DNA from: Dermacentor variabilis
Lineage: Eukaryota; Arthropoda; Arachnida; Ixodida; Ixodidae
DNA length: 64,000 nucleotides
NCBI RefSeq assembly: GCF_050947875.1
Contig: NC_134572.1
Coordinates: 154,587,105 to 154,651,104 of the forward strand
Reading direction: 5' to 3'
In this document: one piece after another, positions 867-18,291 of the stretch
Layout: every line of letters begins with the position of its first letter
How positions within the stretch are numbered: the first letter of the stretch is position 1
The notes under the pieces: generated by a model
What the model was told of the DNA's origin: nothing
What the model saw: the letters and a program-made list of their open reading frames with translations, nothing else
The model's database searches: none
Made by a program: the position numbers and the translations under genes

Positions 867-1410
867 TCGCTTACGAAAAGCAAACGACGACCTCAAGAGC
901 ATGATCAAGAGGCTAGTTAACGAAATGGCGGAGATTCGGAAACTCGTTACGATTGCGTCTGATAACGGTGCGCCAGGCAGGGCCACAGAGACTCCAATCC
1001 CAGCCCCAGTAGACGGTACTTCGACGTCCTCCAAACGCAGAGCAGTAGTAAAACAAACAGGTGAATCGGGAGCGATGTCCTCAGAAGTCAGCGAGATTAA
1101 GCAATCTCTCTTTGGGCTGGCAGATGGCCTCAAACAAGTCACTGCTAGCGTCAATTGTCTCACCGATAACGTTCGTCAAATTCAGGTTGCACTCGGAGAC
1201 CCCAACAGGGGCCTCGGAGCTCTCGCTGATCGCATAGACGCCATTGAGGCGCGAATCGCTACACCCGCCTCCGTCGTACAACCGCTCACCGTTCCCGCCA
1301 TACTAAAGGAAGGTAGACTTCAATATCCAACCAGGGCGGCGTCAGGAGGTCCCAGTCTTTGCACAGCCCTAACTGCCCCGTTAGATGGTAGTCCATCCGG
1401 TCCGCCATAA
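853..1410 (+). CDS. LINE E1 ORF1 protein (coiled-coil, N-terminally truncated)
   Basis: The frame is open from 853; the first ATG is at 901, giving 169 aa. Codons upstream of that ATG (RLRKANDDLKS) continue the same charged heptad-rich pattern, so the true N-terminus was probably lost when the element was truncated on insertion. Residues 1-20 and about 60-125 (EVSEIKQSLFGLADGL, LADRIDAIEARIA) look like coiled coil. ORF1 proteins of this kind bind element RNA in the cytoplasmic RNP. Unlike typical R1/I-clade ORF1 proteins, no CCHC zinc knuckles can be seen: only two Cys are present, and they are not in knuckle spacing. The stop TAA (1408-1410) shares its final A with the ORF2 ATG (1410-1412). 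Function is inferred from position. Confidence 0.6.
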   Translation, partial: HGNTIRLRKANDDLKSMIKRLVNEMAEIRKLVTIASDNGAPGRATETPIPAPVDGTSTSSKRRAVVKQTGESGAMSSEVSEIKQSLFGLADGLKQVTASVNCLTDNVRQIQVALGDPNRGLGALADRIDAIEARIATPASVVQPLTVPAILKEGRLQYPTRAASGGPSLCTALTAPLDGSPSGPP

Positions 1411-4400
1411 TGGATAGGTTCAAAGAGAGTTTTCGCATTTGGCAATGGAACTGCAGGGGATATTCTAACAAAAAAGCCCCTCTGCAGCAGTTCTTCAGGT
1501 CCTTCGCAGTCAAACCTCAAGTCATTGCTCTCCCGGAAACATTAGTCTCCGCCGCCTCGCTCCAGGGCTACAGGGCCGTGTCGGGCCTGCCCGGGGGGCG
1601 AGGGATTTGCACCTTGATTGATAAAAGGCTGACTCATCTCACCCACGACCTCAAGCTGGGGTGTGGTAGAATTGAATATGTCATGGTTGAGATCCTGCTC
1701 GATGTACCACACCAGAATCAGCGCAGAAACAGCGTGTTCGTCCTCAATATCTATAGCAACCCCAGGGACTTGCGCCAGCAGTTCAAGACCATCCTAAAGA
1801 AAGCGACCGACTTGGCCGGCCCTCGACCCTTGGTCGTCGTCGGTGACTTCAACGCAACGTACGGCATCTGGGGTTACGTCTACGACACTACCAAGGGGCG
1901 CAACCTGTGGCAAGACGCCAACGAGATGGACCTCACTCTGGTCACTGACAAGAATTTTCCTACTCGCATCGGCAACAACGTCACCCGGGACTCGACACCT
2001 GACCTAGCGTTCGTCAGGAACGTTGAGGACGTAGGCTGGGAGAACACCGCCATGGAGTTCGGCAGCGACCACTACATTCTCGAGACCAACTTCAAGGTGT
2101 CTCGGAGCAGGATCAAGGAATTCACGTTCATTGATTGGGACCACTTTCGCAAGATTCGCGAAGAACCCAGCAGAGCCAGGGCACCTGCCACCCTCGAAGA
2201 ATGGTGCGAAGGCGTCCGGAACGACGCTTCCGCAGCTACCAAGAAAGTGGAAACCGATCTCGACGTCGAGCGGATGGACAGCAGACTTGCCCACCTGATC
2301 GAGGCCAAAAACGCCCTGCTCCGCCGATGGAAGGGTCAAAGGCTCAATCGCAGACTCCGAAAAAAGATCTCGGAGCTCAACAAGGTCATCGATGACCACT
2401 GCAAGGCGCTATGCCAGCAGCAGTGGGACGAGCTCTGCGAATCCATCGACGGACAGATGCGCAACGGCAAATCCTGGGGTATGCTGAAGCACCTTCTCGA
2501 CGAAAGCGGCTCAAAGTCAAATCAGAGGCATACGTTGGCCAGGGCCCTTCACGAAGCCACCAGGTCTCACACGGTCGATGAGCTCGTCGCAAAACTGGTA
2601 CAGAAGTACTTGCCCGTACTTCGCGACGGAGATCCAGTGACCCAACTCCCAGACTACCGAGGCCCTCCACGCCCCGAGCTCGACGAAGACTTCTCCATTG
2701 CCGAGGTTAGACAGGCCATCTTCGCGCTCAACCGCAAGTCTGCGCCGGGTCCAGACGGAGTCACCAACAGAATGTTGAGAAACCTCGAGGACACGTCGAT
2801 CGTCTTCCTGACCGACAAAATCCACGAGTCCTGGAATAGCGGCGTTGTTCCTGCAGAATGGAAGATGGCCTGCACGGTGCTCATTCCCAAGCCCGGCAAG
2901 GCCCCGAACATCGAGAACCTCAGGCCGATTTCTCTAACCTCCTGCGTCGGCAAGGTCATGGAGCGCGTCGTGCTCAACAGGGTCAACGGGTACCTCGAAG
3001 ACAACGAGGTTTACACGTACAACATGATCGGCTTCCGCGCAGGACTCTCGACGCAGGATGCAATGCGCCTAATAAAGCATCAGATTGTGGATGGCCGTTC
3101 CAGAGACGTCAAGGCTTTGCTCGGTCTGGACCTCGAGAAAGCTTTCGACAACGTGCTCCATAGCTTCATCGTAAAGACCATTTCAGATCTGGGTCTCGGC
3201 TCCAGATTCCATAGCTACGTCAGCTCTTTCCTAACGGACAGGAAGGCCAAGCTTCGCATTGGGGACTTCCGTTCCAACGATGTGCCCCTCGGAGGGCGGG
3301 GCACTCCTCAGGGCGCCGTCATCTCACCCACCCTGTTCAACATCTGTATGATTGGTCTTTCCGAGAGGTTGGCACGCGTAGAGGGCGTCAAGCACACCAT
3401 ATACGCCGACGACATCACCTTATGGTGCTCCAGCGGCTGCGAGGGCAGAGTCGAAGAATCCATGCAGGAGGCGATAGACGTGATCGAGGAGTATCTCCGC
3501 CCCACCGGACTTCGATGCTCCCCCGCCAAGTCGGAGCTTCTGCTTTACAGAAAAGAGAAGGGAGGCAGACCCAAAGATTGGAAGCCAGTGTCCGAAAGCA
3601 GCATCAGTCTTCGCACTTGTGACGGGGGGGTGATACCCAGGGTTGACGTTATTCGGGTCCTGGGCATGTTTGTCGAATTCAACGGCGGGAACGGAACGGC
3701 TCTCCGCAAGATCATCGCAAAGACGGACAACGCTTTCCGCCTCGTTCGCAGAATAGCAAACCGGCACCGAGGAATGAAGGAAAACAATCTCCTCAGGCTT
3801 ATCAATGCATTCGTACTATGTCACTTTACGTACACAATTTCTATGCATAACTGGCTCAGAGCGGAGCGAGACAAACTCAACGCTCTTATCCGCAAAGTGG
3901 TCAAGAGGGCTCTCGGGCTACCCATCAGGACCCATACCGAGGATCTCCTTAGGCTGGGGGTGCATAACACTGCCGAGGAGATTGCCGAGGCCCAAGAACG
4001 CGCGCAACTCACTCGCTTGAGCACCACAGCGGCAGGTAGACACATCCTCGAAGAGCTGGGTTACCAACCTGCGGGATTCCCGATGGTCAGTACCCCGATC
4101 CCCAGGTGCATTCGAGACAAGTTCGAAGTGGCCCCTGTGCCCCGAAACGTCCATCCCGTCCATAACGAGGGCAGACGCAAGGCCAGAGCAGCAGCCATCC
4201 TCAAACAGATCAAGCAACGAGACATTAGAACAGGCTTCGTCGACGCCGCGGAGTACAGCGGTGGGAAGACCTTTGCCATCGTTGTGGTCGACTCCAGCGG
4301 CAAGATTTCCAACTGCGCCTCCATTCGCACTTCAGACCCCGGTGTCGCCGAGCAAGCCGCCATCGCCCTCGCCCTGCTAGACGGTCGTGGATCCGAGATA

Positions 4401-5027
4401 TATAGCGATTCCAAAACAGCAGTTAGGGCTTTTCAGAAGGGTTGCATCGCCAAGCAAGCTGCTCGTCTGCTTAGCAGCTCGAGTCGAGATGCTCTCACGC
4501 ATCATTCAATCCACTGGTTTCCAGCTCACGTAGGGTCGGTCGAGGGTGCTCCCCCGAACCTCAATGAGTCTGCTCACGAGGCTGCGCGTGACCTCACCGA
4601 CCGCGCTTCCTCTACAAGAAGCACCGACTCCCCTCCTCCCTACGGCCACAGGGACGCTCCCGCTACTCACAACGAGCTTATTAAATTCCTCTACATGTCT
4701 AGAAGGGTCTTTCCACCCCCTCACCCCAAGTTGAATAGGGCGCAAGCCGTTTCGCTTAGGCTTCTGCAGACCAGTACGTATCCGTGTCTGTCCGTTCTCC
4801 ACGAGGCTTACCCGGACGTGTATCGCGACGACGCCTGCCCCTCCTGCGGCCAGACCTCCACTCTAGCGCACATGCTGTGGGAGTGTGGGTCGACATACCC
4901 CAAGTTCATCAAGGAGGAGTGGGACTCGCTTTTGCGTAGCCCCGCTCTAGAAAAGCAAATCCTGGCCGTCCAGCGTGCCCGCGACCGGGCCGGTGGGCTA
5001 GACCTGCCGGTCCCGACGTGGGACTAG
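1410..5027 (+). CDS. LINE E1 ORF2 polyprotein: endonuclease, reverse transcriptase, RNase H, zinc finger
   Basis: 1205 aa with no internal stop. It nicks target DNA and copies the element RNA by target-primed reverse transcription. The endonuclease domain is about residues 8-232: WNCRG at 13-17, PET at 42-44, GDFNA at 145-149, SDHY at 219-222. RT is about 380-720: SAPGPDG at 444-450, LRPISLTSCVGK, the GTPQGAVISP block and catalytic YADD at 665-668. RNase H is about 940-1075, with candidate catalytic residues at Asp945 (FVDAA) and Asp1000 (YSDS) and the late HVGSVEG...NESAHEAA block. A finger C1143-x2-C1146-x7-H1154-x4-C1159 closes the protein. The architecture is that of I/R1-group LINEs. The start is chosen at the ATG overlapping the ORF1 stop, because the endonuclease begins only 10 residues later. 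The intact frame suggests a fairly recent copy. Confidence 0.93.
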   Translation: MDRFKESFRIWQWNCRGYSNKKAPLQQFFRSFAVKPQVIALPETLVSAASLQGYRAVSGLPGGRGICTLIDKRLTHLTHDLKLGCGRIEYVMVEILLDVPHQNQRRNSVFVLNIYSNPRDLRQQFKTILKKATDLAGPRPLVVVGDFNATYGIWGYVYDTTKGRNLWQDANEMDLTLVTDKNFPTRIGNNVTRDSTPDLAFVRNVEDVGWENTAMEFGSDHYILETNFKVSRSRIKEFTFIDWDHFRKIREEPSRARAPATLEEWCEGVRNDASAATKKVETDLDVERMDSRLAHLIEAKNALLRRWKGQRLNRRLRKKISELNKVIDDHCKALCQQQWDELCESIDGQMRNGKSWGMLKHLLDESGSKSNQRHTLARALHEATRSHTVDELVAKLVQKYLPVLRDGDPVTQLPDYRGPPRPELDEDFSIAEVRQAIFALNRKSAPGPDGVTNRMLRNLEDTSIVFLTDKIHESWNSGVVPAEWKMACTVLIPKPGKAPNIENLRPISLTSCVGKVMERVVLNRVNGYLEDNEVYTYNMIGFRAGLSTQDAMRLIKHQIVDGRSRDVKALLGLDLEKAFDNVLHSFIVKTISDLGLGSRFHSYVSSFLTDRKAKLRIGDFRSNDVPLGGRGTPQGAVISPTLFNICMIGLSERLARVEGVKHTIYADDITLWCSSGCEGRVEESMQEAIDVIEEYLRPTGLRCSPAKSELLLYRKEKGGRPKDWKPVSESSISLRTCDGGVIPRVDVIRVLGMFVEFNGGNGTALRKIIAKTDNAFRLVRRIANRHRGMKENNLLRLINAFVLCHFTYTISMHNWLRAERDKLNALIRKVVKRALGLPIRTHTEDLLRLGVHNTAEEIAEAQERAQLTRLSTTAAGRHILEELGYQPAGFPMVSTPIPRCIRDKFEVAPVPRNVHPVHNEGRRKARAAAILKQIKQRDIRTGFVDAAEYSGGKTFAIVVVDSSGKISNCASIRTSDPGVAEQAAIALALLDGRGSEIYSDSKTAVRAFQKGCIAKQAARLLSSSSRDALTHHSIHWFPAHVGSVEGAPPNLNESAHEAARDLTDRASSTRSTDSPPPYGHRDAPATHNELIKFLYMSRRVFPPPHPKLNRAQAVSLRLLQTSTYPCLSVLHEAYPDVYRDDACPSCGQTSTLAHMLWECGSTYPKFIKEEWDSLLRSPALEKQILAVQRARDRAGGLDLPVPTWD

Positions 5028-8727: not shown

Positions 8728-9943
8728 ATGACATGGAAAATACATCCCCCCTTCCAGATCGTCCTAACAAAAGAGGGCGCACCGAAGCAATTTTTGATTT
8801 CACTTTCAAAACCAACGTAGAAACATTCCCACGCTAACATGTGATCCGCAGTGAAGGACCTCTGCCAATGAGAAAAATATCCCCATTCCTAGCAGCAAAA
8901 TGCCTGGCAGAAAAAATTGGAAACAATACAAGGTTTCAAAGATGTGAAGTGGGGACCTCCTCCTTGAACTCAAAACCAAAGACCAAGTAGAAAAGCTCGC
9001 TGATCTCGCCAGCGTCGGTGACATCAAAGTCACAATCTCAGCACACCGTTCGCTTAACACAAGCAGGGGCGTAATATCAGAAGAAGTTTTCTTAAATTTG
9101 AGCGATGAAGATCTCCTGGAAGGTTTCCAAGAACAGAATGTAATCAAGGTTCAAAGAATAACTCTCCGAAGAAATAACGAATAAATCCCGACCAAACACG
9201 CTATAATTACCTTTGGTACCAGTATTGTACCTACTACACTTGAAGCAGGCTGTCTGAAGATCAACGTAAGACCATATATCCCAAACCCGAGGCGGTGTTT
9301 CAAGTGCCAGAGGTTCGGATATGCATCGCAATCATGCAGAGGTAAATCAATATGTGCAAAGTGTAGCGCCAATGACCATCAGTCGGAGAATTGCAATGCT
9401 GCTCCGCACTGTACAAACTGCAAAGGAGATCATCCAGCATATTCACGATCTTGTTCTTGCTGCAAGAAAGAAAAAGAGATAATTGCACTTACGCTGAAAG
9501 AGAAGATTTCCTTCTATGAAGCAAGAAAGAAACTAGCACACTTACTTCAAACAACCTACGCCAGTGCGGTGCGACAGGGGACAGCACCCCAGTGACCTCA
9601 GGAGTCTACAAGGACCGCAGACAGCGGCCTAGTAGTAACTCCATCCGTCCCCTTGGTGGCAGCAGCCAGTGCTGCTCCATCGTCATCATCACAGACCGGC
9701 CTGCAGACCCCGCTTCCACAGGGCCCCAGGCTAAATCGAACACCCAGGCCTGAGACGCGCGTCTCAGTGCCTTGTTCTCGATCATCCAGCGCCTCGGAGA
9801 AGGCTATGGAGGTCGACTAAAAAACTCCGGCGTCATCGACGCCAAAAGATCAGCGCTCTTTGGAGCGCACTAAGAAAGACAAGATCACAATAACTACGCG
9901 AACAAAGGGACCGGTAACCTCACGGTTACCGTGCTTCCAATAG
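8728..9943 (+). pseudogene. LINE B ORF1 (gag-like, three CCHC-type zinc knuckles)
   Basis: ATG at 8728 starts MTWKIHPPFQIVL, then frames shift. From about 8945 one frame reads LLLELKTKDQVEKLADLAS and ISAHRSLNTSRGVISEE (an RRM-like region), through a stop near 9181, to RCFKCQRFGYASQSC (9296-9340), CAKCSANDHQSENC, and CTNCKGDHPAYSRSC. These are three knuckles, the first with Tyr in place of His. A Ser/Pro-rich tail ends at TAG 9941-9943. ORF1 of this LINE group binds element RNA in the RNP. Frameshifts and stops (about 8900, 9181, 9595, 9818) disable it. Confidence 0.82.
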
Positions 9944-10018
9944 TACATTTCCGCTAATAAATGTCACCTACAGTTACTTAGTACACAGATATAAATTAAC
10001 ATTCTCACTTCTGCCACT

Positions 10019-10271
10019 ATGGCTTTTATCATGCATTGGAATTGTAGAGGACTGATGCAAAATTTGGGTGACATTAAAGACATAACAAATAAGTTTGCAC
10101 CAGTCGCCTTTTGCCTACAGCAAACAAACTTAGGCCCTTAGAGCTTAGGCCCTTAGTCAATTCCTTAGAGGCTTCACCATTGTCCGAAAGGACCGCGAAT
10201 GTTCCAGCTGTTTGTCAGGTGGAGTGGCTATAGGCGTGCAGGGCGGCGCTCTTACCCGAAATGTCCAATTA
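10019..10271 (+). pseudogene. LINE B ORF2, N-terminal endonuclease fragment
   Basis: ATG at 10019 begins MAFIMHWNCRGLMQN, the first motif of an apurinic-type LINE endonuclease. A stop and a small direct duplication (CTTAGGCCCTTAG repeated, 10131-10160) follow. The reading then resumes as QFLRGFTIVRKDRECSS, GGVAIGVQGGALTRNVQLE. It is cut by insertion of LINE C at about 10271 and resumes near 14705. Confidence 0.78.
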
Positions 10272-10805
10272 GAGGGCACGGCACTTGTCAAGCTGGCAGG
10301 ATGGCTAAACCACCGCTCCTACCTTTGCAGGCATGGCCGTGGATTATTGCCGTGATTTCTTCGAGCAACGTACACGAGCAGTTTACACCCTTGCTGAATC
10401 ATCTGGGAAGCAAGGCATGTGACAGCTCATTGGATGATCTTCGATGGACGACGATGACGTCAGCAACCACAAGCCTACTAAAGAACCGACACGGCGATGG
10501 GCACAGCAGAGGGCACGGCACTTGTCAAGCTGGCAGGATGGCTAAACCACCGCTCCTACCTTTGCAGGCATGGCCGTGGATTATTGCCGTGATTTCTTCG
10601 AGCAACGTACACGAGCAGTTTACACCCTTGCTGAATCATCTGGGAAACAAGGCATCTGACAGCTCATTGGATGATCTTCGATGGACGACGGTGACGTCAG
10701 CAACCACAAGCCTACTAAAGAACCGACACGGCGATGGGCACAGCAGAGGTCACGGCGCTTGTCAAGCTGGCAGGATGGCTAAACCACCGCTCCTACCTTT
10801 GCAGG
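10272..10805 (+). repeat. 237-bp tandem 5' monomers of LINE C (promoter-type repeats)
   Basis: Unit 1 starts at 10272, unit 2 at 10509, and a 60-base partial unit 3 at 10746; both spacings are 237 bp. The units differ at only a few positions. Each full unit contains the palindrome TGACGTCA (10455-10462 and 10692-10699), the consensus CREB/ATF site. The partial unit supplies an ATG (10775) used by ORF1. Tandem 5' monomers acting as promoters are known from mouse L1; that role here is inference. 237 is 79 codons, which is why a frame runs open through the array. Confidence 0.88.
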
Positions 10806-11718
10806 TTGGTGTACAAACGTATGCAGTTTGTTGCAAAAGCGACAACAGATTCTTGATTGTAGTGCCGTGCCCTCGTATGTGTTGGTCTATTGTGGTGGAC
10901 TGTTGGTCGACATTATTGCTATTGTTAACTTCAGGGGATGTAGAGGAAAACCCGGGCCCGAAGACGGCTGAATTGTTACAACAAATTTTGGATAATCAGA
11001 AGGAATCTGATGAAAGATGAACACGATTAGAAAAGAAGTCGCTGAACTTAATATGAAGACTGAAAGAATGAACAGGCATCTCATGGCCATGCAGGAAATG
11101 CAAATGAAAATTGAGAGACTAGAAAACATAGTCCAACAACAAGCTGAACGACTAGTGGATTATGAAAATAGAAGCAGAAGAAATAATCTGCTAATTTTTG
11201 GTGTTCCCGAGGCCAGAACTGAGACGGAAACAGATCTGCGGAAAGTTGTCGTAGATAACATTGTCAGAAGCTTGTTGGGAGTAGAAACTAAATCGATAGA
11301 AAGAATTCATCGCATTGGTAAACAAAGCGAAGGCCGGGTAAGACCAGTCATTATGAAGTTCATGGACTATCGCGAAAAAGAGAAAGTAATGCGCAACTGT
11401 AAAAAACTAAAGGGCACTTCTTTCAGTATCAATAATGACTACTCAAAAGAGACCGTTGATCTCAGAATGAAATTATGGGAAAGTAGTGCGCCGGACCGAG
11501 CTAAGGGGGCACGGGTATCACTCGTGTATGATAAACTAAAGATAAATGGACGCATGTTTGTTTGGGATCAAGAGAAAAATGAACGGCGTCTGTATAAAAG
11601 CCGGAGTGACAAGATCGATAAAGACGTAACAACTCCAACAGCAAGTGCGCATGACCGGCATGAATCCTTTGACTCGGATAGTTCTGCCAGCAGTTCAAGA
11701 AAACCGCCCCACTCATAG
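10775..11718 (+). CDS. LINE C ORF1: N-terminal 2A peptide followed by coiled-coil/RRM-like RNA-binding protein
   Basis: From ATG 10775 the frame gives a leader of about 50 aa ending in a hydrophobic stretch (TLLLLLTS) and the canonical 2A motif GDVEENPGP (10934-10960). Ribosomes would skip between the last Gly and Pro. The frame then stops at TGA 11018-11020, while an ATG at 11017 opens the next frame as an ATGA overlap. That frame runs 233 aa to TAG 11716-11718. It has a long coiled coil (LNMKTERMNRHLMAMQEMQM, through about residue 55), then YENRSRRNNLLIFGVPE, an RRM-like L1/CR1-type ORF1 core, and a Ser-rich tail. Either a one-base slip broke one ORF1, or the ATGA is a termination-reinitiation site. 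The first is simpler. The protein would bind LINE RNA. Confidence 0.8.
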
Positions 11719-14496
11719 CTACGAATTCTTGTGCAAGATGCCCGTAGCATCGTTAATAAAGTCACAGAACTAGAATATATTCTACTGGCGCATAGTCCCC
11801 ATGTAATACTACTTACAGAAACATGGCTGCGTGAGGGAATACGCAGTGATTGCATTGTTCCTTCCGGGTACAAATTCTTTAGGTGGGACAGAGATTGACG
11901 AGGCGGTGGTGCTGCCATCATAGTTAAAAATTCCGTCCATGCTTCCACGATTGAATCTAATGTTCCCGAAAGTTTATGGTGTAAGCTTACATTCGAAAAC
12001 AGAACGTACTTCATTGGCGTAGTATACAGACCACCTGCGTCTTCGCCAGCGTTTCTGGAACTGCTAAGCGAATTCTTGGTTGACCATGTTAACAGGAACA
12101 CGAGGCTGATAATGGCTGGGGACTTTAATTTGCCGCACATTAATTGGCAAAGTTTATTGCCCGGCGAGACAGAAACAGCTAGCTCGGAAAAGCTCTGGGA
12201 AATAAAATTTTGTCATGGCTTCGAACAAATTGTTCAAGAACGAACTAGAGTTACAGAAAAGTCAAAGTCATTATTGGATCTTGTTTTCCTATCGCACAAC
12301 ATAATAGATTATACATTAGATATATTGGAGGGCATATCAGACCATAAAATGTTATCTTTAGACATACAGACCTATGTGGGCAGTATAGGGAGACCGTTTC
12401 TACCGGTAAACGTAAAAGACTTTAAAAATGCAGATGACACCGCTATCATAGATTTTTTAGAATTACAGTTTAGTTACTTCGAGCAGGCATCGAAGAGCGA
12501 GTCTGTGGAACAACTGTGGCAAAGATTTAAAAGAAGCATCATAGCTTGCGTCGAGCACTTCGTTCCAACTCGTATTAAGAAAACGCGCAAACGAAACCCC
12601 TGGATAACACGCAGCATTATCCATATGAAACGGAAAATTAAAAGACTACGAAAACAGAAAGTGAGAGCGATGGAAGTTGCAGCTATAAAAATTGAGATGA
12701 AAGAAGCTCTTGTGAAATCAAAAAAACAGTTCTTTGATCACACGCTTGCCAACTTTCTTAAAAGTTCACCACACAAATTTTGGCGGTACTTCAGTGAAAG
12801 AAAGGAAAAAGTTGAACAGCTCGAGCATGAAGGGAAAGTTCTGACACGAGTTGAAGACTTAGCTGATGTTTTCAATCGCTTCTTTCAATCTGTTTATACG
12901 ACAGACAAAGGTGATAAGATAGGCGAATACATGAACGGCGACATGAGGACCGCAATGGAATCAGTTATTGTCAGCCGTGAAGGTGTTTTACAATTGCTTC
13001 TTGAAGTAGACGCGAAGAAGGCAAGCGGACCGGATGGTCTACCAACTGAATTTTTGAAACGATATGCCGAATGGGTTGCCTTTTACTTAGAGATAATATA
13101 TGCGAAGTCAATTGAAACTCGTTCACTTCCACAAGACTGGCGCAATGCAATAGTAATCCCTGTTTTTAAAGGTGGCAACCGTATGCAAGTAAACAATTAC
13201 CGACCCATATCCCTGACGTCAGTCTGCTGCAAGGCTCTAGAACACGTTATTGCAAAGCATATTATTAGTTTTCTTGACACTAACGAGTTACTTTCCACAA
13301 TTCAGCATGGATTTAGGAGCAGTCTTTCTACGGTGACACAGTTAACAGAAACACTCCATGATTTCTACCTGAACATGGATGCACACCTACAAACAGACGT
13401 AATAAGCGTTGATTTTAGGAAAGCTTTCGATAAGGTTTCTCACTGTAAATTACTTTTTAAGCTCGATAAAATAGGAATAGGTAAAGAAGTAATAGAATGG
13501 ATAGAGGCCTATTTATCTATGCGTCAACAGTCCGTAAGGATTGAGGATTGCATTTCAAATCCATTGCGTGTATACTCTGGGGTTCCCCAAGGTTCCGTTT
13601 TGGAACCAATACTTTTTTGGTTGTTTGTTAATGATATCGGTGCACTAGTCGAACCGCCTGTTAAAATGAAACTTTTTGCTGATGATTGTTTGATTTATTC
13701 GCCAATAGGTTGCGAAGATGACCAAATTAATCTTAATAGATGCTTACAGGCATTAGACGAGTGGTGTTTAACATGGGACATGGAAATAAACTATAGCAAA
13801 ACAACATTTACGCATATTCGCTCAAGCAGGAGCAAATTTTCCTTCATATACCACATCGGAAACCATCCTCTGAATAATGCAGCTTCTTTCAAATACTTAG
13901 GAGTCAGTATTATGTACACATTGCAATGGCACTCACACGTTGATAATATATGTTCTAAGGCAAACCAAAAACTATACCTTTTAAAGAAAAAACTGGAATG
14001 CGCTACACGGGACGTGAAATTAACAGCCTACAAAACTTTTGTACGACCAGTCTTGGAGTACGCTTGTGTTGTGTGGTCCCCTCATCAGAAAGTCCTGAAA
14101 GCAAAAATAGAAAGAATACAAAGATTGGCAGTCCTTTTCATATGCGGTAAATACCGACGCATGGAGTCTGTTACAGCCTTGTTAAAATCGTGTGAACTAG
14201 AGCCTCTGGAGGAACGCAGAAGTAAGCATAGGCTAAAGTTTCTTTTTAAAATCATGAGTGGGCGAACGAAAATAAACAAGGATCTATATCTACAACCCCC
14301 AGGACGGAGATGCGACCGTCTAAACAATAGCAGAGCTATTCAACCTTATTTACCACGTACTGATGCTTTTCGTTTCTCCTTTTTTCCTGACACAATTGAA
14401 ATGTGGAACAGATTGCCTGATGCAGTTGTGAGCAACGAGGGCTCTGCCGAATTTGAAAATGCGTTGGATACTTTCTTTTACGAGAATGTATACTAA
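11719..14496 (+). pseudogene. LINE C ORF2: endonuclease and reverse transcriptase, one nonsense codon
   Basis: It follows ORF1 in the same frame, directly after the UAG at 11716-11718, with no ATG before the endonuclease. It reads LRILVQDARSIVNK (first motif, Asp where Asn is usual), TETWL, a TGA at 11896-11898 (WDRD-stop-RGGGAAI, consistent with CGA to TGA), VVYRPP, GDFNLPHINW (about 12118), and ISDHKML. From ATG 12076 it is open for 806 aa. The RT has KKASGPDGLP, NNYRPISLTSV, ISVDFRKAFDKV, YSGVPQGSV, and FADD at 13675-13686. There is no RNase H, as expected for CR1/L2-type LINEs. How ORF2 is started (readthrough, reinitiation, non-AUG) cannot be settled from sequence. Confidence 0.85.
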
Positions 14497-14704
14497 ATTG
14501 TTGCTGCGAGCACTTTCGTTGACTTTTTCTTTGTATAACTACTGTTATTTGCTTTTGTTAACTTCCAAGAGCGCCAGTGCATTTGTATGTTACATAGAAA
14601 GAAAATTATGTATCATGTATTCTTGACACATCACCCTCCCTGTAATGACCCCAACAACGGGGTTGACAGTATCAAATAAATAAATAAAATAAAATAAAAA
14701 TACA
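14497..14704 (+). terminator. LINE C 3' UTR and AAATA-repeat tail
   Basis: About 170 bases of AT-rich 3' UTR, a short CCCCAACAACGGGG-type hairpin near 14650-14663, then ATCAAATAAATAAATAAAAT repeats (14668-14697). AATAAA and the short-repeat tail are typical of CR1/L2-type 3' ends. Confidence 0.7.
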
Positions 14705-17700
14705 TCTTTAGAGGCCGTAGCTGTCACCATTCTATCCTACAAAGCCATCACCATTTGCTCACTATATATACCACCCCACACACATTTTACTATTAAAGAC
14801 TTAGAAAATCTAACAGATCAGTTACTGGAGTCATTTGTCTTAGAAGGAGATTTTAATGCTCATCGTACTCTTTGGGGCAGTGTGAAAACTGACCAAAGAG
14901 GGCAACTCGTTGAAAATTTTATTCTGTCAAATAATATCTGTCTTTTAAGCTCAAGTACGCCAACTTACTTCTCACCGACTTCCCGCACATTTAGTTGTTT
15001 AGAGTTAGCTTTTTGTTCGCCCTCTCTTCTTACTGATTTTAAATGGGAAGCTCTCGACGCGTCATATGGTAGAGACCACTTACCCGCACTCGTCAAACAC
15101 CTATCCTCACCACAAAGCCTAGTAACTAGACCACGGCGATGGAAATTACAGCTCGCGGACTGGCCGGTCTTTATGGAGAACGCGAAACTGGAAGATGTCT
15201 TTTCACCAGAGCGAAGTATTGATGAGCCTAATAAAAAAAATCACTGAGGTTATAATCTGTGCGGCAGAAAAGGCCATACTCCTGTCATCGGGTATAGCGC
15301 ACAAAAAGCTAAACACCTGGTGGACGAAGGAGTATACCAACGCTGAAAAAGAACAAAATAATGCCTGGGGAATCCAACGGAGATACCCCACCTATCGCAG
15401 CCTGTTAAACTTCAAACAAGCCAAAGCCAAAGCACGCTTCATTCGAAGACATGCTGAAAAATCATCATGGCAAAAATACATCTCTTCAATTAATAGTACG
15501 GTAACATCGAAACGGATGTGGGACTAGGTGAGGAAATTTAGAGGACAGTACTCATCTTACACAATACCGTTACTTACAAGTCCAGGCGCACAAACAACAA
15601 TACAAGAGCAGGCACATATACTTGGAGAACATTTCCGCGATGTACCCAGTTCAGGGAAATATACAAAGGAATTTTTACAATACAAACACTCTGCTGAAAA
15701 ACAGAAGCTGCCCACTACTGGCGCATCAAATGAACCGTACAATTCCCCCCTCACACAATAAGAAATAACAGAGTTCTTTCTGCAGGGAAAAAGACAGCGC
15801 CAGGTTACGACCGTATTCACTACGCCATGCTGGTTCATCTATTTCAAGCATCTGTAAAAGCTCTCCTTAAATGTTTTAACTTAATCTGGGAATCTGGCAT
15901 AATGCCGGAAGAATGGAAAAAGGCAATAGTAGTTCCATTTCTAGAAGCCGATAAATCCCCCACATCCGCGAGCAGCTACGCACCTATTGCCCTCACAAGC
16001 TGTTTGGCAAAATCATATGAAAGCATCATCAATATAAGACTTTCATTTATTTTAGAATCAACAAATCTTATTGACCCCCATCAGTGTGGATATAAAAAGT
16101 GTTGTTCAACCACTGACCATCTTGTCCGTCTAGAACATGAAATTGGATATGCGTTTTTACACAAACAACACTGTCTTGCAGTTTTCTTCGATTTAGAAAA
16201 AGCCTATGATACCACACGGAGATATGGAATTTTAAGAGACCTGGCTGACCTCGACATCCGGGATAAAATGCTGAACTGCCTAGCTGATTTTATGTCTAAT
16301 AGAACATTTCAGGTACGTCTGGGCTCAGTACTAAAACACACATGTAAACAGGAAAATGGGGCTCCACAAGGCTGTGTTATCAGCAAGACACTCTTTATAG
16401 TAAGAATGAACTCAGTTAATAAGATCATACAGTCTTTTCTTATGCACTCCTTATACGTAGACGATCTCCAAGTGGCTTGCGTGCCTCAAATTTGCTAACC
16501 TGCTAATTTGCTAAGGCAGTTTCAACTCACAATAAATAAACTTACACAAGGGGCTAACAAAAATGGTTTCCGTTTCTCCAAACAGAAAACAGTTACTGTT
16601 TTGTTCTCTCATAAACGAGGGCTACACAGCGATCCAGCCCTAAAATTGAATGACGTCATGCTGCCGGTGAAACAAGACCATAAGTTTTTAGGAGGAACCT
16701 TTGACACCAAACTAAACTTCTTAGCCCACAATAAAACACTATAGCTTAAGGGAAATAAAGCATTCCAGCCCTAAAATTGAATGACGTCATGCTGCCGGTG
16801 AAACAAGACCATAAGTTTTTAGGAGGAACCTTTGACACCAAACTAAACTTCTTAGGCCACAATAAAACACTATAGCTTAAGGGAAATAAAGCATTGAATA
16901 TCCTCAAAGTTTTATCTCATGAGCGCAGGGGTTCCGACCGAACCTGTCTTTTACGTATTTACCGGTCTCTTGTGTGTAGCCTTTTAGACTACGGTTCCGT
17001 GGTTTACGGCTCAGCTAGGTAGTCCTACATCCAACGACTTGATCCAGTACATAACTTCGGACTGCGACTGGCAAGTGGTGCTTACAGAACTTCACCTATT
17101 CAAAGTTTATGTGTCGAGTGTAATGAACCCTCCTTACAGCAGCGCAGAGCATTACTCACTTTTTCCTACGTACTCAGAATTCAGTCATCACCGCAACACG
17201 TATGCTACAACATCCTCACACAATGCAACTCACGCTTACACTACACAAATAAACCGAACATGATTAGGCCACTTGTCCTGCGGTGTGAGCAATACTGTCG
17301 GGACTATGACCTTCCCCACGAAGTCCTCCAGGTTGCCAAGAAACCACAATGGTTGGCCCCGTGGTACGAGTTCACACATTTATGTGATTGGACGTTAACA
17401 CCTCTAAAGAAAAGAGACATCCCACACAAACACACTATGCAAGAATTCCGTGCACTCCAGGACAAATATCAAGATATCATGCAATATTACACTGATGGCT
17501 CTAAAGCAAAAGATCACGTGGGTGTGGTGGCCGTAACGGAAAATTGGGGAACAAGTATTCGATTGCCACAACACGCTTCCGAAGTTTACGCCGTCTGGGT
17601 TGTTGTGAAAAAGATTATCGCTGATAAACACCCAAATGCAGTCATATACACAGATTCTTTAAACACACTGAATGCTCTACACCTGAAATCTGAGTGTGAA

Positions 17701-18291
17701 CCCATTATTGGAGACATCTTAAACATGGTGGCTTTTAACGAATACGGGAGGTCAATTCGTTTCTGCTGCGTACCAAGCCATGTTGGCATACCGGGTAACG
17801 AAGCAGCTGATAGATGTGCATTGATGGCAGCGCACAAAGACATTACAAACACGACACTCCCATATAATGATAGCATCCGTGCAATTAAAAAAGCCTTCAC
17901 GGTAAAATGGCAACGCGAATGGGACCGTTGTGCCGACAACAAGCTACATCTCACGAAACCCACAGTTGGCGAGTGGAAGTTATGCTATCATCAGGAGCGG
18001 TTCATCGAAGTAGTTTTATGCCAACTATGCATTGGGCACACACACCTCACACACAATTACTGACTTACGAAAGAAGACATACCAACATGCGAGAAATGGC
18101 AACAGCCACTAACAGTTATGCACATATTACTCAGATGTACGGAGACTGAAACACACAGACTAACACTTTTGCACAAATGTAAACTACACATACCTTTACA
18201 CCCTGCTCTAATTTTAGGCGATGATCCACTAGTACCATTATGTGACGTCCGTAAATTTCTAGATGACACTGTCTTTTTACATAAAATATAG
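14705..18291 (+). pseudogene. LINE B ORF2, main part: endonuclease C-half, RT, RNase H, C-terminal finger
   Basis: It resumes after LINE C with SLEAVAVTILS, LYIPP and LEGDFNAHRTLWGS (14849-14885), then the linker NTWWTKE...AWGIQRRYP. RT blocks: SSYAPIALTSCLAK, FFDLEKAYDTT, NGAPQGCVIS, and LYVDDLQ (YVDD, about 16450). A 131-bp tandem duplication (16634-16895) shifts the frame. The 3' part is open from 17260: YYTDGSKAKDHVG, ASEVYAVWVV, IYTDSLNTL, HVGIPGNEAADRC, giving all four RNase H acidic residues. A C-terminal C...H...C region follows after a stop at 18061. Stop TAG at 18289-18291. At least five frame breaks disable it. Confidence 0.87.
16634..16895 (+). repeat. 131-bp tandem duplication inside LINE B ORF2
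   Basis: 16634-16764 is repeated at 16765-16895 (CCAGCCCTAAAATTGAATG...GGGAAATAAAGCATT). I see a single mismatch (AGCCCAC versus AGGCCAC). As 131 is not a multiple of three, it changes frame. The near identity points to a recent event, later than most of the other decay. Confidence 0.93.

Follow-up and report, generated by a model that had tools for sequence, protein, structure and literature searches.

The presence of 2A sequences in animal LINEs is established. The elements of Odon 2013 are said to be APE-type LINEs with a D(V/I)ExNPGP motif in N-terminal position; they are like the tick lineage described here in combining an APE-type LINE with a 2A motif, and are not known to have in-frame promoter monomers, a variable leader or a same-frame leaky stop.

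A sea-urchin NLR, as described in Roulston 2016 (PMC4981915), carries an N-terminal hydrophobic leader that ends in an active 2A, and release parts the leader from the protein. The tick LINE shares the combination of N-terminal hydrophobic leader and 2A, but the sea-urchin leader measures 26 aa and belongs to a host gene, whereas that of the tick LINE appears to be variable and made up of putative promoter monomers. Mouse LINE-1 carries tandem 5' promoter monomers whose number varies per copy and which lie in the 5'UTR, with a tether before ORF1 (PMC9022269, PMC6454616); monomer duplication is reported to help maintain promoters. In contrast, the monomers of the tick LINE lie in the ORF1 frame, contain AUGs and are followed by a 2A. 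Viral StopGo sites (Li et al. 2026, PMC12846837) have, upstream of D(V/I)ExNPGP, an L-rich stretch whose last residues are (A/S/C)G, and a motif-6 example is active in vitro; they belong to viral polyproteins from sampled virus genomes, the tick LINE shares their upstream context, and neither 'tick' nor 'Dermacentor' occurs in the main text of that paper. Gammaretroviral gag-pol (PMC5009743) is expressed by UAG readthrough with a stimulatory pseudoknot; like the tick LINE it keeps a replication gene in frame beyond one stop codon, but it belongs to an LTR element and has the pseudoknot, whereas no structure was found after the stop of the tick LINE in nine families.

Titles and the starts of abstracts in the open-access literature yielded neither in-frame LINE promoter monomers trimmed by a 2A nor a 2A in tick LINEs, a result that is not proof of absence. 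A 2A in a LINE is already known; it is the arrangement with in-frame promoter monomers for which we found no report.

The 2A motif and the element that carries it

In the 64,000-nt stretch of Dermacentor variabilis DNA that was analysed ('the window'; contig NC_134572.1, 154,587,105-154,651,104), GDVEENPGP is encoded exactly, in the frame of ATG 10775, which translates as MAKPPLLPLQVGVQTYAVCCKSDNRFLIVVPCPRMCWSIVVDCWSTLLLLLTSGDVEENPGP, and STLLLLLTS directly precedes it (Table 1). The original prediction placed a 2A motif behind a Leu-rich stretch and N-terminal to a LINE ORF1, and the results agree with it. A degenerate 2A pattern, with at most one mismatch allowed, has one match within the 64-kb window and none in 100 dinucleotide shuffles of the window, and DVEENPGP, in any codons, occurs 298 times (151 + 147) in the whole 2.48-Gb assembly, as against 0 occurrences of the backward-read control in the same assembly. 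The peptide agrees with the (D/G/C/N)(V/I)ExNPGP core, and the permissive upstream context, L-rich with a small residue plus G at its end, is present as LLLTSG, in keeping with the Leu-rich/(A,S,C)G context of StopGo sites. Among the matches listed, 118 of 121 tick proteins have G at p11 and 120 of 121 have at least two hydrophobic residues in p6-p9. As judged by sequence, the succession of L-rich stretch, SG and DVEENPGP is similar to StopGo sites of the motif 2/6 class. The protein that the 2A precedes has the coiled coil, RRM and C-terminal domain of human LINE-1 ORF1p and is thus an L1-type ORF1p, a placement that is made by structure, Pfam alone being insufficient, and ORF2 matches PF14529 (APE endonuclease; 4e-13) and RVT_1 (9.6e-35). 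We conclude that the element is an APE-type LINE.

Table 1. Features of the LINE copy in the window
Feature	Position	Strand	Basis or remark
Head 1: 5' end of the element, inferred start of transcription (A+1 = 10271); 30-nt 5'UTR, in-frame ATG 10301, CAG at end	10271..10330	+	Array start vs unique flank; 61-nt direct repeat family
Body 1: putatively promoter-bearing, open in frame	10331..10507	+	Repeats; family copy L040
Body 1, TGACGTCA	10455-10462		-53 relative to A+1 of head 2 (10508)
Body 1, TATA-like CTACTAAAGA	10475-10484		ACTAAA at -31 relative to A+1 of head 2 (10508)
Head 2: in-frame ATG 10538	10508..10567	+	Repeats
Body 2: TGACGTCA at 10692-10699, TATA-like at 10712-10721	10568..10744	+	Repeats
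Head 3: in-frame ATG 10775 (start in the original prediction), pyrimidine-rich end ...CCTTTGCAG	10745..10804	+	
Head/leader junction, CAG/GTTGGT	10802..10810	+	Representatives of 16 families
Constrained leader peptide VGVQTYAVCCKSDNRFLIVVPCPRMCWSIVVDCWSTLLLLLTS, 43 aa	10805..10933	+	pN/pS 0.46 between families
2A/StopGo core, GDVEENPG/P	10934..10960	+	Pattern search, shuffles, pN/pS
Predicted skip site, Gly codon / Pro codon	10955-10957 / 10958-10960	+	2A core
ORF1 start after 2A, in 2A frame	10961..11017	+	Closed by TGA 11018-11020
ORF1 body: coiled coil, RRM, C-terminal domain; TAG 11716-11718, then C	11014..11718	+	
ORF2: APE endonuclease, reverse transcriptase; frame of ORF1 body	11719..14496	+	Pfam domains
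3' UTR and A-rich (AAAT-type) tail	14497..14701	+	Exact 3' end by eye

In the window copy (locus L031), the 2A frame ends at TGA 11018 and the ORF1 body resumes in another frame, and ORF2 contains one nonsense codon, an internal TGA at 11896-11898. Copies with ORF1 open from the 2A are present in the same genome, and the matches listed for the ORF1 body of the window copy include a D. andersoni protein with 100% identity along the whole of that body. We conclude that the window copy is broken but differs little in sequence from intact copies. Its array comprises 237-nt repeats (10271-10744) followed by a partial unit of 61 nt, and its 5' end, AGAGGG at 10271, is among seven array ends without the typical +1 motif. 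The element sits inside an older, decayed LINE of another type (window about 9000-10270 and 14702-18060) that has RT and RNase H domains and whose first ORF, by eye, shows CCHC-like motifs; visual inspection revealed no clear target-site duplication. Elsewhere in the window, an open frame of 1211 aa (1392-5027) that encodes APE endonuclease and RT domains marks another LINE with a long open ORF2.

The assembly was searched with the ORF1 body as sole query, the 2A being excluded; this gave 13,984 first-look candidates, of which 150 were scored, and the upstream DNA was read for the best 50 of these 150. A strict D(V/I)ExNPGP precedes ORF1 in 40 of the best 50 loci, a decayed 2A in six (L040, L044, L046, L047, L050 and L056) and no trace of a 2A in four (L051, L052, L055 and L057), which look 5'-truncated. 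The copies without NPGP thus look decayed or truncated, and do not speak against the motif as a property of the family. In 35 of the 41 loci with a script-found motif (40 strict, one loose), the 2A lies exactly 78 nt upstream of the body match.

Related proteins numbered 161, namely 91 from one search and 70 more among 120 of the 493 matches listed in a second. The 2A motif is present in 125 of these 161 among the matches listed; most of the other 36 are gene models that begin inside the ORF1 body, and some (P0035, P0078, P0086, P0249 and P0260) have one or two changed 2A residues. All species named among the matches listed are ticks, including the soft tick Ornithodoros turicata, and many entries are nameless. 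The same proteins bear on whether ORF1 might simply start downstream of the 2A (in the window, downstream of 10960). No AUG follows the 2A lineage-wide: among the matches listed, 48 of 125 proteins have no Met within 40 residues after the 2A, which disposes of a start just after the 2A as a general rule; some families may nevertheless use one, since in 32 of 125 the fifth residue behind the 2A Pro (+5) is a Met. To judge from these sequences, an internal start at that Met could also give a near-uniform ORF1p in some families.

Selection between families was estimated by the Nei-Gojobori method for ten pairs of five representatives (A, L040; C, L064; D, L062; E, L079; F, L027); F was found via the motif and A, C, D and E were not, the A copy carries a decayed 2A, and family G was aligned and excluded from the pooled numbers. 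The 2A core has a pN of 0.039, a pS of 0.894 and a pN/pS of 0.04, with 8, 0 and 56 differences at codon positions 1, 2 and 3, and the motif is therefore kept as protein while its codons vary. The corresponding pN/pS values are 0.42 for ORF1, 0.46 for the leader, 0.56 for the head and 0.86 for the body. The 2A is the most constrained stretch measured.

Tandem monomers in the ORF1 frame

An upstream array (score at least 28) is present in 46 loci among L001-L080. The array period is divisible by three in 41 of the 46, although an unrelated repeat, L049, counts among these 41; L018, L029, L048, L050 and L071 are the exceptions, the last with a 227+228 double unit. Five arrays (L036, L038, L065, L078 and L080) extend beyond the fetched flank, within which L036 and L038 each have at least five monomers of 237 nt. 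From array start to 2A, the expected frame is free of stops in 27 of the 46 loci and contains at least one stop in 19, in some of them because the frame is disrupted close to the 2A, as happens in the window copy. Of sixteen families compared, 13 remain after B, O and P were dropped for broken frames; the periods of their representatives are 228, 237, 240, 246, 252, 267, 270, 273, 300, 300, 306, 333 and 417 nt. Across 1223 codons, the units of these 13 families contain 2 stops in the ORF1 frame (in the copies of families F and M), as against 41, 28, 57, 20 and 60 stops in the other five frames, in representatives that were chosen after the stop counts were known, which favours open copies, although several families offered a single usable locus and hence no choice. 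Because the families share ancestry, the multiples of three do not amount to 13 independent events.

The same repeats appear in protein models. Leaders of at least 90 aa occur in 64 of the 161 related tick proteins, and 49 of these 64 contain an in-frame repeat, as against 0 of 64 shuffled leaders, with repeat-bearing models in the named genera Ixodes, Rhipicephalus, Dermacentor, Haemaphysalis and Amblyomma, all among the matches listed. Protein models are open by construction, and the genomic loci are therefore the fairer test.

Most units also carry promoter-like features at regular distances from the head. Taking the initiator A of AG(A/T)GGGC as +1 (positions for H, J and N use an atypical +1), a TATA-like hexamer lies at -33 to -30 in 12 of 13 families, at -31 in nine, at -30 in H and N and at -33 in K, and none was found in J among the 13 scanned; the list of TATA-like hexamers was compiled after viewing the sequences, which makes the exact spacing the stronger fact. 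TGACGTCA is present in 9 of 13 families, at -53 in seven, at -62 in I and at -50 in M, and is absent from J, K, L and N among the 13 scanned. All 13 families have an in-frame ATG between +18 and +40, seven of them at +31.

The 5' ends of the arrays fall at the same point. From the 46 arrays, L049, L050 and L071 were set aside, L053 has no CAG near its end and seven more have no typical +1 motif; 35 were measured, five of which run off the fetched DNA. The 5' end lies no more than 3 nt from the initiator A in 25 of the 30 measurable arrays, with differing flanks, the exceptions being L003 (+6), L017 (-12), L018 (-4), L032 (+16) and L061 (-29). A fixed transcription start with full-length insertion would give such common 5' ends. 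On these features, the monomers look like promoter units.

In the window, the frame upstream of ATG 10775 is also open, through the in-frame ATGs 10301 and 10538, and the start is therefore not fixed at 10775. The leader, counted through the final Pro, measures 62, 141 or 220 aa depending on which monomer AUG is used, and in view of the two additional AUGs upstream we rejected the fixed leader of about 60 aa that had been proposed for this locus. We conclude that the element plan in this large tick lineage is Head-(Body-Head)n-Leader-2A-ORF1-stop-ORF2, in essentially a single reading frame.

ORF2 in the ORF1 frame

In 40 of the 41 loci with ORF1 open in the ORF2 frame, ORF2 follows in that same frame behind UAG-C (36 loci) or UGA-C (four loci). 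The shared frame with TAG-C or TGA-C is found in ten families, and in the window, at 11716-11724, ORF1 and ORF2 form one frame across TAG CTA. An AUG before the endonuclease motif is present in 0 of the 41 loci in which the motif was found; several database relatives of ORF2 have a Met just before it. This configuration points to ORF2 probably being made by readthrough of the UAG-C or UGA-C stop. Stimulation of such readthrough by a hairpin finds no support, since no stable RNA structure was detected after the ORF1 stop in nine families (z -1.4 to 1.9, against mononucleotide shuffles and with pseudoknots outside the calculation); not all readthrough sites need a downstream stimulatory structure. 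Splicing of a head to ORF2, which would supply an AUG, can draw on the YAG context of several ORF1 stops, but leaves the shared frame and the stop-C context unexplained, and we rejected it.

Proposed use of the variable leader and the 2A

According to the reading that we consider likely, the element combines in-frame promoter monomers, a variable leader and a 2A that acts as N-terminal trimmer, with ORF2 probably expressed by readthrough. Each Body-Head monomer would serve both as a promoter unit and as a stretch of open coding sequence equipped with an AUG. As the promoter precedes the start site and is itself part of the frame, transcripts could start at any monomer, and transcripts from different monomers would encode leaders with 0 to n repeats. 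Translation from the first AUG would pass through the unconstrained bodies and then through the constrained leader of about 43 residues; the ribosome would skip the Gly-Pro bond at the 2A, and ORF1p would always start with the 2A Pro, whatever the length of the leader. The 2A would thereby allow a variable promoter array within the gene, and readthrough of the ORF1 stop would yield ORF2. The exit tunnel of the ribosome holds a nascent chain of roughly 43 residues, and this match with the leader would explain why constraint begins there; among the matches listed, the constrained leader measures 42-46 residues in 76 of 91 tick leaders, and LP[CS]P is present in 71 of 98 tick leaders of at least 38 aa.

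The leader might itself have a function. All 13 families have the most hydrophobic 12-residue window of the unit among the first 30 residues behind the head AUG, as against 3.1 families expected by position, which favours, on sequence grounds, a signal-peptide-like N-terminus at the monomer AUG, not at the Leu run. The suggestion that the hydrophobic leader doubles as a signal sequence is thus upheld in part: a hydrophobic stretch does follow each monomer AUG, whereas the Leu run is 2A context. A switch of this kind, comparable to the 2A leaders of the sea-urchin NLR, in which the hydrophobic segment sends the leader or the unskipped leader-ORF1 into the secretory pathway, the 2A sets the cytosolic share of ORF1p and the repeats belong to a functional leader protein, is a reading that we consider unlikely. 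To our knowledge, no secretory destination is of use to a LINE. The first six body codons look constrained and keep their second positions (26, 8 and 24 differences at codon positions 1, 2 and 3), which suggests a signal-peptide-like role and not trimming alone, and dual targeting by N-terminal 2A signal sequences was shown in Roulston 2016 (PMC4981915). Against this stand the shuffles, which give modest P values of 0.0095 to 0.173 per family, and the body as a whole, which is mostly unconstrained (pN/pS 0.86), with differences spread evenly over codon positions (314/268/308), also in its last 20 codons (83/82/82). Most of the monomer body is thus not visibly constrained as protein; the body comparisons are near saturation, so that weak protein constraint may escape notice.

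The 2A might instead serve mainly to remove sequence acquired from the host. A head-end CAG behind a pyrimidine-rich stretch, followed by a leader that starts with GTYNGT, is present in the representatives of all 16 families (B by eye), with deviations in the single decayed copies L013, L029 and L053. Among the matches listed, 91 of 98 tick leaders of at least 38 aa have Q(V/I/L) at the expected stretch, and the next residue is G, S, R or C in 90 of these 91; all four residues can be NGN-coded, which points to a signal at the nucleotide level. By sequence, CAG/GTYNGT behind a pyrimidine-rich stretch resembles a 3' splice site that directly abuts a 5' splice site, and in the window, at 10802-10810, it is acceptor-like and then donor-like, as in a recursive splice site. 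Four of five chimaeric tick gene models (P0227, P0236, P0239 and P0250) join a foreign N-terminus directly after the CAG codon, and in the fifth (P0223) the foreign sequence is not joined there; P0239 contains an LMBR1 segment and P0236 is named sphingosine-1-phosphate lyase isoform X5. The four models run into LINE monomers, leader, 2A and ORF1 and are possibly exonised LINEs in the annotation. Splicing from head to head that would remove monomers is unlikely, as the body starts without GT in families A, F, G and J. That phase-0 3' splice sites at the head ends chiefly take host exons into the LINE frame, with the 2A mainly removing the host-derived N-termini, is in our view decidedly unlikely: the case rests on four gene models only, and by itself it leaves the TATA/initiator spacing, the common 5' ends and the per-monomer AUGs unexplained, and it is therefore more likely an additional use of the arrangement.

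The monomers could also be an ordinary non-coding promoter array that is open by chance, as in mouse L1, with the 2A acting on the leader of about 60 aa only. We regard this as very doubtful: differences in the promoter part of the body are not biased towards any codon position, in-frame stops occur in 19 of 46 arrays and mouse L1 has 5'UTR promoter monomers (PMC9022269), but periods that are multiples of three in 41 of 46 loci, 2 stops in the ORF1 frame against 20-60 elsewhere and in-frame repeats in protein models of five tick genera among the matches listed speak against such an array. A chance motif or dead relic without function, for which the frame break at 11018 and the nonsense codon at 11896 in the window copy could speak, is exceedingly improbable in view of 0 of 100 shuffles, 298 against 0 matches genome-wide, the motif in 125 of 161 proteins among the matches listed and a pN/pS of 0.04.

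Taken together, we hold it somewhat more probable than the contrary that the element is a single-frame LINE run by two recoding events, in which a self-renewing promoter array lies in frame, the 2A frees the N-terminus of ORF1p from the choice of start site or from a spliced host exon, and ORF2 is made by readthrough. A LINE faces the problem that its RNA does not include a promoter located ahead of the start site, and mouse L1 answers this problem with non-coding monomers. The monomers of the tick LINE appear to be coding, and the 2A would make coding monomers harmless. The 2A of animal LINEs would thereby gain a concrete, testable role as N-terminal trimmer, in keeping with the constraint on the 2A, the strongest measured for any stretch. 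Should host exons be joined to the element in phase by splicing, the 2A would free ORF1p from those too. If this reading is true, 2A plus leaky stop is a further way to make a polyprotein from a single frame outside viruses, and one genome offers hundreds of natural 2A sites.
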